From assembly GCF_000826545.1 (NCBI RefSeq), contig NZ_CDME01000004.1, positions 110,296-174,295 on the forward strand: a stretch of DNA of 64,000 nt. Direction: 5' to 3'. The notes beneath the pieces are model-generated. The model was not told the DNA's origin and did not search any database. It was given only the letters and a program-made list of their open reading frames with translations. Made by a program: the position numbers and the translations under genes. This stretch comes from Kibdelosporangium sp. MJ126-NF4. GTDB lineage: Bacteria; Actinomycetota; Actinomycetes; Mycobacteriales; Pseudonocardiaceae. This document shows positions 12,683 to 64,000 of this stretch, piece by piece (position 1 is the first letter of the stretch; each line of letters begins with the position of its first letter).

Positions 12683-13684
12683 TCAGAGCGTGAATCCCGT
12701 GGGGAACGGATCGGCGGGGTCCAGCAGGTACTGTGCCATCCCTGTGATCCACGCGCGGCCGGTCACGGTGGGCACGACGGCTGTCATTGCGCCGACCGTG
12801 GTCTCCTCGGTGAGCCGCCCGGTGAAGGTGGTGCCGAGCAGGGACTCGTTCACGAAGTCCTGCCCCACACCTAGTTCACCGCGTGCGTGCAGTTGTGCCA
12901 TCCGCGCGGAAGTTCCTGTGCCGCAGGGGGATCGGTCGAACCAGCCGGGGTGGATGACCATGGCGTTGCGTGCGTCGCTCGTGGCTGTCGCGGGTGCCAC
13001 CAGTTGGACGTGTTTGCATCCTCCGATCAGGGGGTCGGTGGGGTGGATCGGGCGGCGGTCGGCGTTGATCGCGTCCATGATCCGCAGTCCCGCCGTCAGC
13101 ATTCTGTCCTTTTCGGACTTGTCGAACGGGATTCCGAGGTCCTTGATCGGCAGGATGGCGTAGAAGTTCCCGCCGTAGGCCATGTCGTAGCGGACCTCGC
13201 CGATCCCCGGCACGGTCACGGACGCGTCGAGCTCCAGCGCGAACGAGGGCACGTTCTCGATGGTGACCGACTCGGCACGGCCGTCACGGACACGCACCTC
13301 GGCGACGACGATGCCCGCAGGTGTGTCCAGCCGAACGGTGGTCACGGGTTCGACGACGTCGACCATGCCGGTCTCCACGAGCACGGTCGCCACGCCGATG
13401 GTTCCGTGGCCGCACATCGGCAGGCAGCCGGAGACCTCGATGTAGATCACGCCGGTGTCGGCGTCCGGCCTGGTCGGTGGCTGCAGGATCGCGCCGCTCA
13501 TGGCCGCGTGCCCGCGGGGTTCGTTGACCAGGAACTGGCGGATGTGATCCAGGTTCGCCATGAAGTACGCGCGTTTCTCGGCCATCGTGTCGCCGGGGAC
13601 CACGCCGACGCCGCCGGTGATCACACGGGTCGGCATGCCCTCGGTGTGCGAGTCGACCGCGGTGAAGTAGCGAGCCGCGCGCAT
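12683..13684 (-). CDS. 4-hydroxyproline 2-epimerase (proline racemase family)
   Basis: A 333-residue cofactor-independent epimerase converting trans-4-hydroxy-L-proline to cis-4-hydroxy-D-proline. Both catalytic cysteines are present: C91 in MCGHGTIG and C254 in RSPCGTGTSA. This distinguishes it from the Thr-containing trans-3-hydroxyproline dehydratases. The DSHTEGMPTRVI start is characteristic. It is the last gene of a five-gene operon, 1 bp after the dihydrodipicolinate-synthase-family gene, and the genes upstream in the operon oxidise its product. Confidence 0.92.
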   Translation of the reverse strand: MRAARYFTAVDSHTEGMPTRVITGGVGVVPGDTMAEKRAYFMANLDHIRQFLVNEPRGHAAMSGAILQPPTRPDADTGVIYIEVSGCLPMCGHGTIGVATVLVETGMVDVVEPVTTVRLDTPAGIVVAEVRVRDGRAESVTIENVPSFALELDASVTVPGIGEVRYDMAYGGNFYAILPIKDLGIPFDKSEKDRMLTAGLRIMDAINADRRPIHPTDPLIGGCKHVQLVAPATATSDARNAMVIHPGWFDRSPCGTGTSARMAQLHARGELGVGQDFVNESLLGTTFTGRLTEETTVGAMTAVVPTVTGRAWITGMAQYLLDPADPFPTGFTL

Positions 13685-13685
13685 G

Positions 13686-14585
13686 TCAGGCTCCCACCGC
13701 GCGCCGCATGTCGGCCTTCAGTGCCGTGAGTTGCTCAGCGGACAACGGTCCACGGGGTGGCCTGCACGGTCCGCCATAGCGGCCGACGTAGTCCATGCCG
13801 TACTTGATCGCCTGGACGAACTCGGTCCGGGAGTCCCAGCGGAACGCCCCGATCATGGATTCGTACAGCGCGCGGGCGTCGGCCAGTTTTCCGTCCATGG
13901 CGAGGGAGAACAGTCGCGCGGACTCGGCGGGGAAGACGTTCGGGAACCCGGCGAACCAGCCCGTCGCCCCCATCAACACCGACTCGACCAGCACGTCGTC
14001 GGCTCCGGCGACCACGGTCAGGCTCGGCGCGACATCGCGGATCTCGGTCACGCGACGCACATCGCCGGAGAACTCCTTGACCGCGACCACGTTGTCGATC
14101 TGGGCGATCTCCGCGAGCACGGCCGGGGTCAGGTCGACCTTGGTGTCGAACGGGTTGTTGTAGACCATCACCGGCAGGCCCACCGACGCGACCTGCTCGA
14201 AGTGCTTGATCACTTCGGACGGGTTGGCCCGGTACAGCGTGGGTGGCAGGCAGAGCACGCCGTCCGCGCCGTCCTGCGCCGCCACCTCGGCCCAGTGCCG
14301 TGCCTGGTGCGAGCCGACGCCGTGCACGCCGACCACGACGATTCCCTTGTCGCCGACGGCGTCGATCGCGGTCCGCGCCACCGCCCTGCGCTCGTCGTCG
14401 GTCAGTGAGGAGTACTCGCCGAGCGACCCGTTCGGGCCGACGCCCCGGCATCCGTTCTCGATCAGCCAGCGGCAGTGGTCTGCGTAGCGGTCCAGGTCGA
14501 CGCGGAGTCCGGCCGGTGCGTCCGGGTCCTCGGCGTAGGGCAACGCGGTCGCGACGATGACGCCGCCGAGCTTTTCCTCGGTCAT
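13686..14585 (-). CDS. Dihydrodipicolinate synthase family; likely pyrroline-hydroxycarboxylate deaminase
   Basis: Class I aldolase-fold enzyme, 299 residues, with the Schiff-base Lys170 in VVAVKEFSGD and Tyr142 in MVYNNPF. In hydroxyproline operons the family member deaminates 1-pyrroline-4-hydroxy-2-carboxylate to 2-oxoglutarate semialdehyde, and that is inferred here. The binding motif is NGSLGEY in place of the DapA-type GTTGE, so lysine biosynthesis is unlikely. GAGGAGG lies 5 nt before the ATG, which overlaps the previous stop (ATGA). Confidence 0.88.
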   Translation of the reverse strand: MTEEKLGGVIVATALPYAEDPDAPAGLRVDLDRYADHCRWLIENGCRGVGPNGSLGEYSSLTDDERRAVARTAIDAVGDKGIVVVGVHGVGSHQARHWAEVAAQDGADGVLCLPPTLYRANPSEVIKHFEQVASVGLPVMVYNNPFDTKVDLTPAVLAEIAQIDNVVAVKEFSGDVRRVTEIRDVAPSLTVVAGADDVLVESVLMGATGWFAGFPNVFPAESARLFSLAMDGKLADARALYESMIGAFRWDSRTEFVQAIKYGMDYVGRYGGPCRPPRGPLSAEQLTALKADMRRAVGA

Positions 14586-15838
14586 GTTTCCTCCTCGGCT
14601 GCGAGTTCGCCCAGGCGCAGCGGTGCCGCTATCGGGCGTCGTTCGGGGAATGCCACTCCGGTCAGGTCTGCGGCGTTGCGCAGGCAGGTCCGGCCTTGGC
14701 AGCGGCCAAGGCCCACTCGGCTGACCAGCTTCACGGTCCGTGCGCCGGTGGCGGCTCGGGTGCTGACGGCATCGCACAGCGCGCCGTACGTGACTCGCTC
14801 GCAGCGGCAGACGACGGTGTCGGTGGCCAGCCAGTCGCGCCACCCCGGTCCGATCGGGTACGCCTGGGCCAAGGCGGCCGCGAACCTGCGGCCTTGTCGT
14901 ACTTTCCGCAGTGCGTCGTGGGGCACCCGGCCGCCGACTGCGGCGATCCCGGCGACGGTTCCCTCGGCGGCGGCGAGGTCCGCGCCGCCGATCCCGGTGA
15001 TCTCCCCGGCCGCGAACACGCCGGGGACTGACGTCGCCTGTGTGAAGCTGACCTTCACAAACCCGTCGGCCAGGTCACAGCCCGCCGCGACCGCGAGTTC
15101 GAGTTGCGGGGTGAAGCCGTGGGCGACGCACACCGCGTCGGCCTCGACCTGCTCGGTGCTCAGGATGTTCCAGTTCTCGTCGAGCCGGGCGACGGTCGCG
15201 GCCTGGACGTGGCCGTCTCCGTGGACCGCCACGACCGCTGTTCGCGGGCGGTACGGGATGCGGTGGCGCGCCAGGTGAGCCAGGTACCGCGTGGCCTCGC
15301 CGAGCTTGTGTCTCCCTGCGAACGGGGCGCGCAGCCAGCGCGCCGGGGAGTTGGCCTCTAGGACGGCGATCACGTCGGCGCCGACGTCGGTCAACGACTT
15401 CGTGACGGCCAGCAGGAACGGCCCGGTCCCGGCGACGAGTACGCGGCGGCCGATCGGGAGGCGCTGTTCCTTGGCCAGGATCTGGGCAGCTCCGGCGGTG
15501 TACACACCGCGCATGTCCCAGCCCGGGAACGGCACGACGCGGTCATGGGCGCCGGTCGCGAGCACAAGCGCGTCGGCGTCGACCACCCTGGCTTTTCTAT
15601 CCGGCCCGTCGGCTGGACCGGACAGCAGGTGCACGCGGCGGCCTTCGATCGCCCAGACCACGGTGCTCGGCAGGTGTTCGACGCCGGGAAGCGTGCGTGG
15701 ACGGTCGTAGGGCTGGCGGAAGAACTGGCCGCCCACGGACGGCCCGGAATCGACGAGGACCACGTGCGCACCGCGCGTGGACGCTGCCCGTGCGGCGCTG
15801 ATTCCGGCGGGTCCGGCGCCGATGACGACCACCTTCAT
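14582..15838 (-). CDS. FAD-dependent D-hydroxyproline dehydrogenase subunit, HcnB/SoxA-like
   Basis: A pyridine-nucleotide-disulphide-oxidoreductase-like flavoprotein of 418 residues: FAD site VVVIGAGPAGISAARAA at the N terminus, second nucleotide site RRVLVAGTGPFLLAV, and GVFAAGEITGIGGADLA. The C terminus has a BFD-like [2Fe-2S] module with cysteines in VVCRCERV and GRCQGRTCLRNA. Together with the small ferredoxin-like protein and the DadA-type protein it makes the heteromeric dehydrogenase known from hydroxyproline clusters. The start ATG (MKVVVIGAG) overlaps the ferredoxin-like gene's stop. Confidence 0.88.
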   Translation of the reverse strand: MKVVVIGAGPAGISAARAASTRGAHVVLVDSGPSVGGQFFRQPYDRPRTLPGVEHLPSTVVWAIEGRRVHLLSGPADGPDRKARVVDADALVLATGAHDRVVPFPGWDMRGVYTAGAAQILAKEQRLPIGRRVLVAGTGPFLLAVTKSLTDVGADVIAVLEANSPARWLRAPFAGRHKLGEATRYLAHLARHRIPYRPRTAVVAVHGDGHVQAATVARLDENWNILSTEQVEADAVCVAHGFTPQLELAVAAGCDLADGFVKVSFTQATSVPGVFAAGEITGIGGADLAAAEGTVAGIAAVGGRVPHDALRKVRQGRRFAAALAQAYPIGPGWRDWLATDTVVCRCERVTYGALCDAVSTRAATGARTVKLVSRVGLGRCQGRTCLRNAADLTGVAFPERRPIAAPLRLGELAAEEET

Positions 15839-17964: not shown

Positions 17965-19518
17965 ATGGCCGAGGCCGCTTTCATCTCGACGACCATCCCG
18001 TACGTGAACGCACAGCCGCACCTGGGCCACGCGTTCGAGTACAGCCAGGCCGACGCGTACGCGCGGCACATGGCAAGCCGGGGTATGGACGTCTACTTCC
18101 TGAGCGGCTCGGACGAGAACAGCCTCAAGAACGTGCTGGCCGCGGAGAAGGAAGGGATCACCGCGCGCGAGCTGGTCGACCGCAACGTCGTCTTCTTCGA
18201 GCAGATGGCCACCGACCTGCAGACCAAGCTGTCCCGGTTCATCCGCACCAGCGTCGACCAGGACCACATCGACGGCGCGGTCGAGATCTGGCGCCGGATG
18301 GAGGCCCGCGGCGACATCTACGCCAAGGACTACGAGGGCCTGTACTGCGTGGGCTGCGAGCAGTTCTACAGCCCCGCCGAGCTGGTCGACGGCAAGTGCC
18401 CCGAGCACTTCACCGTGCCCGACCTGGTCAGCGAGCGGAACTACTTCTTCCGACTGTCGAACTATCAAGAAAAACTGTTGAGCGCGCTCGAGTCCGGTGA
18501 GCTGAAGGTGGTCCCGGAGTCGCGCCTCAACGAGGTCGCCAGCTTCGTCCGGTCCGGCCTCGAGGACATCTCGATCTCCCGGTCGACCGGTCGCGCCCGT
18601 GGCTGGGGCATCCCGGTCCCCGGTGACGAGAAGCAGGTCATGTACGTCTGGATCGACGCGCTGACCAACTACACCAACGCGCTGGGCTGGACCCGCGACG
18701 GCGACGAATACCAGAAGTACTGGGTGGACGCGGCCAAGCGTGTGCACGTGGTCGGCAAGGGCGTCACCCGGTTCCACGCGGTGTACTGGCCCGCGATGCT
18801 GATGTCGGCCGGTCTGCCGATGCCGACCGAGGTGGTCGTGCACGGCTACATCACCGCGTCCGGCCAGAAGCTGAGCAAGACCACCGGCAACGTCGTCGAC
18901 CCGGCCGATCTGGTCGAGCGGTTCGGCCCGCACGCCGTGCGCTACTTCCTGCTCGCCGAGTTCTCGCCGTTCATCGACGGTGACTTCAGCGAGGAAAAGC
19001 TGATCGCGCGCTACAACGCCGATCTGGCCAACGGCCTGGGCAACCTGCTGTCGCGGGCGACGAGCATGACCGTGCGCTACCGCGATGGCGTCATTCCCGA
19101 GCCGGTCGAGATCGGGGACCCGGAGCGCTCGCTGGCCGAGCAGTTGGCCACGAGCGAACAGGCGTCCGTGACGGCGATGGCCGGGTACGACCACCGTGAG
19201 GCCCTTGCCCGGATCTGGGACCTGGTCCGCCGCACCAACGCGTACGTCGACGAGCGCGCCCCGTGGCACCTGGCGAAGGACCCGGCGCAGGCCGCGGCGC
19301 TGGACACCACGCTGCACTACCTGGCCGGCGCGGTGCGCCAGCTCGGCCGGTTGCTGCTGCCGTTCCTGCCCGTGGCCGGTGAGACGATCGTGCGCACGCT
19401 GGGCTCCGAGCCGGACAAGGTCCCCGGCGCGCAGAACTGGCTCGACGGGCTGGCCGGTGTGCAGGTGACCAAGTCCGCAGCGCTGTTCCCCCGGATCGAG
19501 GCACCGGCCGCCGAGTGA
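17965..19518 (+). CDS. metG: Methionyl-tRNA synthetase paralogue with variant signature motifs
   Basis: Class I aminoacyl-tRNA synthetase, 517 residues. HIGH is HLGH (19-22), and KMSKS is KLSKT (302-306), followed by TGNVVDP. A single zinc knuckle is present (C128, C131, C145, H148). The region usually reading GTDEH is GSDEN (48-52). The anticodon-binding helical domain (about 360-500) is present and there is no C-terminal EMAP-type domain. AGGAAG precedes the ATG. These variants suggest a second, perhaps drug-tolerant MetRS rather than the housekeeping copy, which I infer lies elsewhere. Confidence 0.85.
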   Translation: MAEAAFISTTIPYVNAQPHLGHAFEYSQADAYARHMASRGMDVYFLSGSDENSLKNVLAAEKEGITARELVDRNVVFFEQMATDLQTKLSRFIRTSVDQDHIDGAVEIWRRMEARGDIYAKDYEGLYCVGCEQFYSPAELVDGKCPEHFTVPDLVSERNYFFRLSNYQEKLLSALESGELKVVPESRLNEVASFVRSGLEDISISRSTGRARGWGIPVPGDEKQVMYVWIDALTNYTNALGWTRDGDEYQKYWVDAAKRVHVVGKGVTRFHAVYWPAMLMSAGLPMPTEVVVHGYITASGQKLSKTTGNVVDPADLVERFGPHAVRYFLLAEFSPFIDGDFSEEKLIARYNADLANGLGNLLSRATSMTVRYRDGVIPEPVEIGDPERSLAEQLATSEQASVTAMAGYDHREALARIWDLVRRTNAYVDERAPWHLAKDPAQAAALDTTLHYLAGAVRQLGRLLLPFLPVAGETIVRTLGSEPDKVPGAQNWLDGLAGVQVTKSAALFPRIEAPAAE

Positions 19519-19583
19519 GGTACGGGGCCGAGTGTGAGGTCGGGGGAAAAACCCTGAATCCGGCGTATCGGGAGAACTGACAA

Positions 19584-19602
19584 GCACAACCGTACGTTGT
19601 GC
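19584..19602. promoter_or_regulatory. Palindrome just before a P-loop gene
   Basis: GCACAAC and GTTGTGC flank a 5-bp centre, ending 4 bp before the next ATG. A CTGACA hexamer lies just upstream. It is positioned to block a short or absent leader, so it is a candidate operator. Confidence 0.4.
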
Positions 19603-19606
19603 GGAT

Positions 19607-20146
19607 ATGGACATTACGGTCGAAAGCCGGGCGCTGGTCGTCGTGGCGGGCTTGCCCGGGTCGGGCAAGAGCACGCTGCTGCGACGAACCCAGGCCAACG
19701 CGCCTATTCGCGTGCTCGACACCGACCACATGCGGTCCTTGCTGGCGGACATGCTGCCTCGCACGGTCCCGTACGGCTGGTACCGACCGCTGGTGCACGT
19801 GCTGCATGCCGCGCGTGTGCTGGCGGTCGTGCTGTTCTCTCGGCACCCGGTGCTGGTGCACGACCCGGCCACTGGTGCGGGGTCGCGGACGGTGTTCGCG
19901 GTGATCGGTTTCCTGTCGGGGCGGGAACGGCATTTCATCTGGATCGACTGCACGCCCGACGAGGCGCTCGCCGGTCAGGTGGCGCGTGGGCGTGTGCTGT
20001 TGAAATGGTCGTTCGCCAGGCATATGCGCCGGTCTCCCCTGGTCCGTTCGCGACTGCTTGCCGGGCGACGGCCGCCGGGCTGGAGCAGCGCGCAAATGGT
20101 TGACCGGGATGTCGCGAGTTCCGGCCTGTATCTCAAGGTCGCCTGA
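19607..20146 (+). CDS. P-loop NTPase, small-molecule kinase-like
   Basis: A 179-residue protein with Walker A GLPGSGKS (15-22) and a short AAA_33/zeta-like kinase fold: RVLDTDHMRS after strand 2, an IDCTPDEAL segment, and a basic lid region (ARHMRRSPLVRSRLL). Such proteins phosphorylate small substrates or are uncharacterised; I cannot assign the acceptor. It follows metG by 88 bp with its own palindrome, so separate expression is likely. Confidence 0.75.
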   Translation: MDITVESRALVVVAGLPGSGKSTLLRRTQANAPIRVLDTDHMRSLLADMLPRTVPYGWYRPLVHVLHAARVLAVVLFSRHPVLVHDPATGAGSRTVFAVIGFLSGRERHFIWIDCTPDEALAGQVARGRVLLKWSFARHMRRSPLVRSRLLAGRRPPGWSSAQMVDRDVASSGLYLKVA

Positions 20147-61088: not shown

Positions 61089-61766
61089 GTGTTGACGCTG
61101 GTGCTGGCCGACCGCGCACCCGTGGTCAGGGACGGGCTTCGTGCCCTGCTGGCGTCACACGGCGACATCCACATCGTCGCGGAAGCCGCGACGAGCCGCG
61201 ACACACTGTTCGAAACACTCAAATGGCAGCCGGACGTGGTGCTGCTCGACTTCGACCGGCACGAGCTGGTCACCACGTGCCGGGAGATCCAGCGATGCGC
61301 GCCGGACACCGCGGTCCTGGTGTTCACCGACTCCGACGAGGACACGGCCGTGATGGCCGCGATCCGGGCGGGCGTGCTGGGCTACCTGCCCAAGACCGCC
61401 GCCGAGGCCGACCTCGTCCGCGCGATCCACAACGTCGCCGCAGGTCAGGCCGTATTCGGCAGGCACGTCGCCGGGATGGTCACCGGGCTGCTGTACAACG
61501 AGCCGCCCGCGGTGTTCCCCGACCTGACCAGGCGGGAACGGCAGATCCTCGAACTGCTGGTGGGCGGCATGCCGGTGCCCGCGATCGCGAAACGGCTGAC
61601 GCTCGCGGCCAAGACCATCCGCAACCACACGTCAGGGATCTTCCACAAACTCGGCGTCGCCACCCGCGACGAGGCCGTCGACATGGCGCGGCGCGCGGGC
61701 GTCGACCGGCTCGGCCCCAGCCGCGCCAGCACCAGCCCCGGCCGCACGAGCTTGGCGCGCCAGTAG
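61089..61766 (+). CDS. NarL/FixJ-type response regulator
   Basis: A 225-residue protein: receiver domain (about 1-120) with phospho-acceptor D54 in VVLLDFD and Lys102 in YLPKTA, then a LuxR helix-turn-helix (LTRRERQILELLVGGMPVPAIAKRLTLAAKTIRNH). The first acidic pair of the phospho-site is reduced (LAD), so Mg2+ binding may be weak. The start is a GTG. No sensor kinase gene adjoins it. The 3' end overlaps the convergent broken AfsR-type gene by 135 bp. Confidence 0.82.
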   Translation: MLTLVLADRAPVVRDGLRALLASHGDIHIVAEAATSRDTLFETLKWQPDVVLLDFDRHELVTTCREIQRCAPDTAVLVFTDSDEDTAVMAAIRAGVLGYLPKTAAEADLVRAIHNVAAGQAVFGRHVAGMVTGLLYNEPPAVFPDLTRRERQILELLVGGMPVPAIAKRLTLAAKTIRNHTSGIFHKLGVATRDEAVDMARRAGVDRLGPSRASTSPGRTSLARQ

Positions 61767-63780
61767 CCGGTAGCCGACCCGGTCCGCGACGGCCAGCGCG
61801 GTGTCGGCCAGCTGCGGGTCACGCCGGATCAGCGCCAGGCAGATGAGCGCCTCGCACTCCTCGTAACGGGCCCCGATCGCCCGTGCGACGGCCAGCGACC
61901 GCTCGTACTCCGCCGCCGCCTCGGCCTCGTCACCCAGCGCGAGACGGATCGCGGCCAACGCGCCACGGGCCCAGGTCTCGGTACGGCGCTCGCCCGTCTC
62001 CTGTGCCAGGACCAACGCCTCCTGTGCGTTCGCCATGGCCTCGTCGCACCGGCCCGCCGCGCGGTGGACGTTCGCCAGGTGGGTGCGTGCCCTGGCCTGG
62101 TCGTTGCGGCCACCGAGTGACAGGTAGATCCGCAGCGCCTCGGAGTCGTGGTCGAACGCGGAGTCCAGTTCGCCACGCAGGTACTCGACGCCGCCGAGGA
62201 AGTGCAACGCGTTGGCCTCGGCGTGCTGCTCCCCCAGCTCGCGGCTCAACTCCAGCGCCTGCTGGTAGTAGGCCCGCGCCTCGACCAGACTGCCCCGGCA
62301 CTGCAGGTTGTTGCCCACCCTGATCAGCGCCGGTCCTTCCAGCTGCTGTTGCTGCCCGGTCTCGCGCAGGAACGCCAGCAACGCGACGAACTTGGCGTTC
62401 GCGCCGTCCAGGTCACCCTGCTGCTCCAGGATCGCGCCGAGGTTGTTGAGCATCGCGGCCTCGCCCGTCGCCCAGCCGACCGCACGGCTGAGCTCCAGCG
62501 CCTCGGTGTAGTGCCGGATCGCGTCCGGGTACTGGTTCTGGCTGTAGTAGGCCGTGGCGAGGCTGATCAGCGCGGCCGCCCTGGCTTTCGGTTCGTCGGC
62601 GGTGACGGCCACCGCGTGCCGGGACACGCCGAACAGGTCGACGATGTGGCCGCGCATGTACAGGTAGCTGCGGACCGTGGCGGCCAGCAGCCAGCTGCGC
62701 CTGCCTTCGGCCCGGCGCACCGCGGCCACCAGGTTGGCCCGTTCCAGATCCAGCCACGCCAGCGCCTGGCTGTGTTGCCCGAACGTCCTGGACGTGCTTC
62801 CTTCGAGGCGGATCATGTACGGGTACAACAGTTCCACCGCCGCGCGCGTGGTGGTCTCGTAGTACTCGTAGAGCCGGTCGAGCGCGGCTTCCCGCTCGGC
62901 CGTGCTGTCCTGCTCGATGGCTCGTTCCCACGCGTACTGGCGCAGCAGGTCGTGGAACGTGTACCGGCCGGACGTGTGCTCCTCGATCAGGTGCGCCGCC
63001 GCCAGCCGGTCCAGCAGCAGCCCGACGTCCGCCGAACCGATGTCGTCCCCGGCGAGCGCCACCGCGGCATCGACCGACGCGTCCGGTCCCGGAACCATTC
63101 CCAGCAAACGGAACAGCCGTTGCGCGTCCGGTTTCAGCGCGGTGTACGACAGGTCGAACCCCGCGGTCACCGCCGCCTGCCGGTCGCCGTCGATCCGCAG
63201 GGCCGCGAGCGGGTCGCCCGCTCGCAGCGCGCCGACGTGCTCGGCGATGGACCGGCTGGGCCGGACCGCGAGGTGCGCGGCGGCGATCCGCAACGCCAGC
63301 GGCAGGAACGCGCACGTCGCGGCCAGTGCGGCGGCCGCAGCGGGTTCCTGGTCCACGCGGTCGCCGAGCATCTGGCGCAGCAACGCGACCGCGTCCCGTT
63401 CGGACAGCACGTCGAGCACCACGCGTTTGGCGCCGTCCATCGCGATCAGCCCGTCCAGCCGGTCGCGGCTGGTGATCACCACGACGCTGCCGGGGCTGAC
63501 CGGCACCAACGGCCGGACCTGGTCCGCGCTCACCGCGTTGTCCAGCACCACGAGCATTCGCTTGCCCGACAACAACGTCCGGTACATCGCGACGCTCTCG
63601 TCCACACCGGTCGGCAGGTCGTCCTTGGCCACGCCGACCGCGCGCAGGAACTGGCTGAGCACCTGCGCGGGCTGCAGCGGCGGGCCCAGGTCGTAGCCGC
63701 GGAGGTTCACGTGCAGCTGCCCGTCGGGGAACCGGTCACGGACGCGGTGCGCCCAGTGCACGGCCAGCGCGGTCTTACCG
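61632..63780 (-). pseudogene. AfsR/NB-ARC-TPR regulator cut at its P-loop
   Basis: The NB-ARC/TPR half of a SARP-AfsR-like regulator: GKTALAVHWAHRVRD, MLVVLDNA (Walker B), SRDRLDGLIAMDGA, PLALRIAAAHLA, then a helical region and a series of TPRs (AMLNNLGAILEQQGD, EARAYYQQALELS). The family motif before the P-loop should read AGVGKTAL; here the text preceding GKT is foreign, so the N-terminal part (DNA-binding and start) is missing. The break sits next to the serine recombinase gene, so insertion is the likely cause. The tail after about residue 700 overlaps the response regulator. Confidence 0.82.
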
Positions 63781-63819
63781 GTGACGGTAATATGACACAT
63801 ATACGGGGAGGATCGGATC
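63770..63819. other. Probable attachment-site junction
   Basis: Host-like coding sequence ends at or near GGTAAGACC, and within 40 bp the serine recombinase gene starts. In between is ATATGACACATAT, a short palindrome. Serine integrases lie beside their attP and often use conserved protein-coding targets, so this is a likely attL or attR. The exact crossover cannot be set without the other end. Confidence 0.6.
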
Positions 63820-64000
63820 ATGAGCACAACTACAGCCGTCCGCGCCATCATCTACCTGCGGTTATCGGACCTCAAGGCGGACGATCTGAACGAGGACGGG
63901 CACGGCAAGACGTTCGCAGACCGGGAAAAGACGCTCCGCGCGTTGGCTAAGCGTCTGGGTTGGACAGTGGTCAAGGTGCTGATTGAGAACGATGTCAGCA
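63820..64000 (+). CDS. Large serine recombinase/integrase (3' partial)
   Basis: The visible 60 residues have the catalytic motif YLRLS with Tyr12, Arg14 and the nucleophile Ser16, followed by FADREKTLRALAKRLGWTVVKV, the usual serine-recombinase helix and strand. GGGGAGG lies 8 nt before the ATG. Leu15, next to the nucleophile, is encoded by TTA (63862-63864). The window ends inside the catalytic domain, so large-integrase status is inferred from the start and the insertion site. Confidence 0.85.
   Translation, partial: MSTTTAVRAIIYLRLSDLKADDLNEDGHGKTFADREKTLRALAKRLGWTVVKVLIENDVS

Follow-up and report, generated by a model that had tools for sequence, protein, structure and literature searches.

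A serine integrase at the P-loop codons of an AfsR-type regulator, with relatives that cut ATPase genes at the same lysine codon

Large serine integrases of actinophages (the phiC31, R4, phiBT1 and Bxb1 class) contain Resolvase and Recombinase domains, are encoded beside attP, recombine at a 2-bp core and place the prophage in a host coding sequence. The integrases examined here are like them in these respects. The published host sites compared here are single genes, e.g. a radical SAM gene in the case of Samy (PMC12924846). Among multi-targeting large serine recombinases (LSRs), a TT core has been reported for one integrase (PMC10083194), and according to a published rule the central dinucleotide sets the orientation (PMC3783163). 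In the elements described here, the P-loop, which ranks among the most conserved short motifs of proteins, appears to be used as a landing site, given that an integrase in the window (the whole 64,000-nucleotide stretch of DNA that was analyzed) and its relatives cut ATPase genes at the same lysine codon. We consider it highly probable that the attL of an integrated element lies at the end of the window and that the close family of its integrase recognizes P-loop-coding DNA as such, not one gene.

The minus-strand open reading frame at 61632-63851 encodes MMARTAVVVLMIRSSPYMCHITVT, then GKTALAVHWAH, then the remaining NB-ARC/TPR protein. The 24 residues ahead of GKTALAVHWAH match nothing in the orthologues, and the Pfam search returned TPRs together with NB-ARC, the latter matched only from position 66 of the 248-position profile onward. 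A search of genome contigs with the C-terminal half yielded five loci. Four of these (labeled Actinosynnema sp. ALI-1.44, Kibdelosporangium aridum, K. philippinense and Rhodococcus rhodnii NRRL B-16535) matched over all 715 residues at 77-81% identity; the fifth was a weak, unrelated TPR match (31%). A convergent LuxR-type gene adjoins the orthologue in all four loci (65-78% identity), and they were therefore taken as positional orthologues. Their frames (L002-L005) are open through GTAGVGKT or GSAGVGKT, and none starts at VTGKTAL. The first-pass annotation had held that the gene keeps GKTALAVHWAH and loses its upstream part, exactly where AGVGKT would be expected, and the alignment with these uninterrupted genes bears out both statements. 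The half missing from the window gene carries Trans_reg_C and BTAD domains in L002 (Pfam); the intact gene is thus an AfsR-type large SARP, with a wHTH and BTAD (L002 N-terminal half), NB-ARC, and TPRs (window C-terminal half). The break falls at the P-loop GKT codons, where the AAG of the lysine appears as CTT on the plus strand. Separately, the locus labeled Rhodococcus rhodnii (L004) is Kibdelosporangium-like and lies in a 12.4-Mb genome; its label may be wrong.

The integrase reading frame starts 44 bp past the break and is visible for 60 codons, in keeping with the earlier description of a recombinase gene starting about 40 bp away at the very edge. These 60 residues had no match in Pfam, in phage or plasmid records, in the protein database or in the four orthologue genomes, and one locus matched in viral contigs (35% identity). 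When they were compared with 390 genomes of one family, 19 genomes matched at E <= 0.001, including eight full-length integrases at 57-71% identity. The crossover register is the same as in 14 relatives (13 with AA or TT, one with TG) and in four more. In the window, 16 nt separate the TT core from TGACACA, a register identical to that of the close relatives. The extent of the inferred attL in Table 1, a total of about 48 bp, was borrowed from the attP symmetry of relatives. An assembly chimera, or a decayed gene that ends at GKT by coincidence, might be entertained for a junction at most 225 bp from the window edge; it is hardly credible for one that lies in the family register to the base, with a family integrase alongside.

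Table 1. Features of the window (positions) and elements of relatives for which both ends were recovered (lengths).
Feature	Position or length	Strand	Basis
Response regulator with GerE/LuxR domain, convergent, syntenic marker	61089..61766	+	Pfam; adjoins orthologues
Interrupted AfsR-type regulator, C-terminal half (NB-ARC from GKT on, then TPR)	61632..63776	-	Orthologues 77-81% identical
Inferred attL: host half 63752-63774, core, element half 63777-63799	63752..63799	.	Register of relatives
Inferred crossover dinucleotide TT (AA of lysine codon, gene strand)	63775..63776	.	Register of relatives
TGACACA motif of element half-site	63793..63799	+	As in close relatives
First 60 codons of a large serine integrase, truncated at the window edge	63820..64000	+	57-71% identity to relatives
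G159 element	59,846 bp		
G167 element	62,735 bp		
G075 element	18,360 bp		
G147 element	62,185 bp		
G092 element	58,980 bp		
G712 element	19,368 bp		
G688 element	19,010 bp		
G566 element	9,046 bp		
G074 element	16,864 bp		
G061 element	19,833 bp		

The arrangement would be explained if a large serine integrase had recombined its attP with a host site made of P-loop codons in the gene for an AfsR-type STAND regulator. The cut would fall at the central AA/TT, i.e. at the AA with which the invariant lysine codon of the P-loop begins. After such a cut, the C-terminal NB-ARC/TPR half would adjoin the integrase, and the N-terminal half would be found across the element, at its other end. The window shows the 60 integrase codons and one junction; the body of the putative element and the N-terminal half fall outside it.

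The close family was defined as nine full-length integrases from the 390 genomes. Their aligned sequences are 48-76% identical to the first sequence of the alignment, and the close relatives measure 503-572 aa. A profile of the nine matched 75 of the 390 genomes at E <= 1e-40, and the family is sharply bounded: its nine members scored at E <= 2.2e-232, the next match at 1.1e-94. Across a class-wide sample of 394 genomes, 45 gave matches, the best besides G159 at 4.9e-134, 1.3e-133 and 5.8e-108. Resolvase and Recombinase (PF07508) domains were found in all three full-length members run through Pfam, and DUF4368 was absent from the same three (E <= 0.001). The relatives thus show the Resolvase domain, Recombinase domain and long C-terminal part of a large serine integrase, and the catalytic-type motif YLRLSDL is invariant in all nine aligned members. 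Among solved structures, sequence matches were limited to the phage recombinase YokA, in two sequence variants. The matches among isolated phages are remote (287 records; Kumao was best at 30.5% identity, and R4 stood at 28.0%), and the 17 plasmid records that matched were all below 60% identity. As a separate observation, one contig (G198:C58) has integrase matches with identical scores at 13637-14866 (+) and 18835-20064 (-), inverted and 4 kb apart.

Seven of the nine close integrases adjoin a broken P-loop (six NB-ARC genes and one ABC-F gene), and all seven share the base register of the window. In five loci (L007, L008, L009, L014 and L019), an NB-ARC C-terminal half starting at GKT lies beside the integrase; in L012 it is an N-terminal half ending in GTAGVGK, assigned to NB-ARC by a 52-residue match (54.5%, E 5e-8). 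In L010, the ENGVGK of an ABC-F gene is kept, and the other half, GVGKSTLLRLLAG, lies 59 kb away and contains two ABC_tran stretches and ABC_tran_Xtn (Pfam). The eighth integrase, L011 (in G147), sits in a membrane-protein gene and not in a P-loop. This gene, of which a 113-residue piece had no Pfam match, is presumably CopD-like. For L013 (in G227), no broken target was found in the scan for NB-ARC halves. The far target half was not recovered in G140, G242 and G139; the latter two run off their contigs, and G140 was read to the contig end.

The NB-ARC targets are different paralogues: the C-terminal halves of the window, G159, G167, G140, G075 and G242 share 35-52% identity, in contrast to the 84% between the window and its orthologue L002. 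The GKT-side pattern of the NB-ARC site was found in 8, 9, 15, 11, 19, 10, 19 and 13 copies in eight genomes, and the reversed pattern used as a control gave no matches in the same genomes; in G159 and G167, one of the matches is the site already occupied. Candidate sites for an integrase are therefore numerous in each genome, and the earlier suggestion that any of many paralogues can be hit is supported by these counts and by the divergence of the paralogues hit. With several NB-ARC paralogues and an ABC-F gene among the targets, the DNA of the P-loop itself would be what is recognized. A possible though less probable reading is that each integrase is specific for one gene and that the P-loop, as the best-conserved stretch, gives the shared position through DNA conservation, with no motif recognized across families. 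Published LSR clusters are indeed mostly described as targeting 1-3 gene clusters (82.8-88.3%; PMC10083194), and the integrases of our sample that target Type II/IV secretion ATPase (T2SSE) genes all hit the same gene family. Against gene specificity, integrases 73-76% identical to that of L009 sit in the divergent NB-ARC paralogues, one of 58% identity to L009 sits in the ABC-F gene at the same codon, and the mapped dinucleotide is identical across three ATPase families (NB-ARC, ABC-F and T2SSE).

The mapping of that dinucleotide used ten elements of 9.0-62.7 kb with both ends recovered (Table 1), nine of them in P-loops and the tenth that of G147. In all ten, attL and attR match over only a few bases around the core. 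In G092, 3 bp are identical before AA and 0 after; in G566 and G061, 0 bp are identical before AA and 3 after. All nine P-loop elements have just one stretch in common, the AA (TT) at the start of the lysine codon. A GC or CC core (from the reverse complements CTTGCC/GGCAAG) was rejected on the same three elements, as the shared identity ends at AA in G092 and begins only there in G566 and G061. In the rebuilt attP sites, the inferred dinucleotide was the top-ranked center of the inverted repeat in nine of ten elements and ranked second in G075. The attB sites were less symmetric, and the inferred dinucleotide ranked first in five of ten. Two viral contigs carry an uncut attP beside the integrase, centered on TT (L129) and AA (L143); 17 of 22 arm positions match, and there is no equally good center in 230 bp. 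A 2-bp crossover with inverted-repeat arms was seen in ten relatives and two uncut attP sites. In these two IMG/VR contigs, the inverted repeats beside the family integrases are near perfect and surround GGTCTTGCCC or GGGCAAGCCG. In 16 of the 18 viral contigs inspected, out of 22, no recognizable attP was found beside the integrase.

AA or TT, 16 nt and a TGACA-like motif follow one another in the P-loop cases compared and also in L026 and L061; in L060, L080 and L102, the dinucleotide at the lysine codon is kept, with other bases in place of TGACA. Where attP has TT, the C-terminal half lies beside the integrase, and where it has AA, the N-terminal half does, which fits the rule that the central dinucleotide sets orientation (PMC3783163). 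In L011, TG occupies the core of both attL and attR, and its attP hence differs at the core; TG in both junctions together with a site outside a P-loop is as expected if the core must match. This locus may represent a natural core change that moved the target. The first-pass reading, a serine recombinase inserted in the P-loop of an AfsR-type gene, is sustained by the uninterrupted orthologues and by relatives with both target halves. The present analysis goes beyond it in that the crossover maps to the lysine codon and that relatives hit other families of P-loop ATPases.

More distant integrases were surveyed by scanning 70 integrase loci with both halves of NB-ARC and secretion-ATPase genes. 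Of these loci, 61 lie outside the close family, three of which repeat the same place. Nine of the 61 (L026, L058, L059, L060, L061, L080, L102, L107 and L111) split a gene exactly at GKT, and no split at GKT was found with these halves in the other 52. The halves in L058 and L060 are T2SSE (Type II/IV secretion) by Pfam, a target for which TadA/CpaF would be the narrower label. L066 was rejected as a T2SSE split; it is T2SSE-like up to GKT, but the frame runs on. L062 and L064 sit in other genes; that of L062, which we take to be a ComM-type gene, is broken near its N-terminus, away from the P-loop. In a tree of 65 integrases, the nine T2SSE-splitting ones occupy three places: three stand beside the close family (joint fork 100/100), five fall in another, weakly supported group, and L080 stands apart. 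An initial placement of them on one side of one branch had ignored 47 unlabeled rows and was dropped in favor of the full tree. Besides these, the integrases of L064, L138, L139, L142 and L144 are preceded by similar GGCATCGGAGATCCGACATGTAG-type sequence, which in L064 and L138 lies at the end of a helix-hairpin-helix gene, another shared target that we presume to be ComEA-like.

It could also be proposed that the P-loop sites are chance products of a low-specificity integrase needing just GC-rich DNA around AA/TT. The L011 insertion in a non-P-loop gene is in line with this, as are published LSRs that hit multiple targets and combine a TT core with relaxed flanks (PMC10083194). Such an origin is very improbable: seven of nine close and nine of 61 other integrases at one codon are far from random, and L011 has TG in attL and attR and hence an attP different at the core.

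Phage genes were typed in two of the ten elements. That of G075 has matches to terminase, portal, head protease, major head protein and tape measure; that of G159 has a tape-measure protein together with GTP cyclohydrolase and QueE-like genes. With these relatives as a guide, the window element is most likely a prophage. The presence of GTP cyclohydrolase and QueE-like genes in the 60-kb G159 prophage (L036) is a point of its own and suggests 7-deazaguanine DNA modification.

In the regulator, the SARP domain precedes the cut. The stranded N-terminal half has BTAD and Trans_reg_C domains in G159, G167 and G075 (Pfam; start codons chosen by hand) and gains a tail of 12, 57 and 4 residues, respectively, after the motif. 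In S. coelicolor AfsR, residues 1-270 make up the SARP, and T337 is the last residue of the Walker A motif; in vitro, the isolated SARP activates transcription more than full-length or TPR-less AfsR (PMC10936776). On that basis, insertion should free the SARP activator domain, and a lysogen could make a free, uninhibited SARP activator. Alternatively, the N-terminal fragment could be unstable, or the outcome could be plain loss of function. For the stranded C-terminal half and for the T2SSE and ABC-F targets, the outcome must be plain loss of function. We offer only as a rather doubtful conjecture that a temperate-phage lineage evolved toward Walker A lysine codons as a generic site available in many ATPase genes, with lysogeny freeing a small-SARP-like activator and excision restoring the switch. 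If true, it would amount to a phage-controlled change in secondary-metabolism regulation, the DNA-binding activator being split from the inhibitory NOD-TPR part.

A crossover on the catalytic lysine codon would provide a site that is hard for the host to mutate away and that exists in many copies, at the price of one killed ATPase; it would also explain why relatives of one integrase are found in unrelated genes. In practical terms, serine integrases with a short, defined, reusable GC-rich attB are offered, and the idea that antibiotic clusters under SARP control are rewired by prophages in actinomycetes becomes open to test. No report of integrases using P-loop codons was found in the literature searched, which was mainly open-access; single cases may sit in the supplements of PMC10083194. 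The multi-targeting LSRs of Durrant et al. 2022 (PMC10083194) are similar in that close relatives hit more than one target gene. That clade is described as often having DUF4368 and AT-rich or relaxed motifs, whereas the sites here are GC-rich P-loop-coding DNA and three members of the close family have only Resolvase and Recombinase domains by Pfam; the two sets may nevertheless overlap. LSRs that target magnesium chelatase/ATP-dependent protease and other competence genes (PMC10083194) are diverse and likewise insert in a conserved ATPase gene; unlike the P-loop insertions, the break in L062 is near the N-terminus. Relative to the actinophage integrases, all 287 matched phage records are below 60% identity to the family, and the host site of the family is a P-loop lysine codon present in many paralogues.
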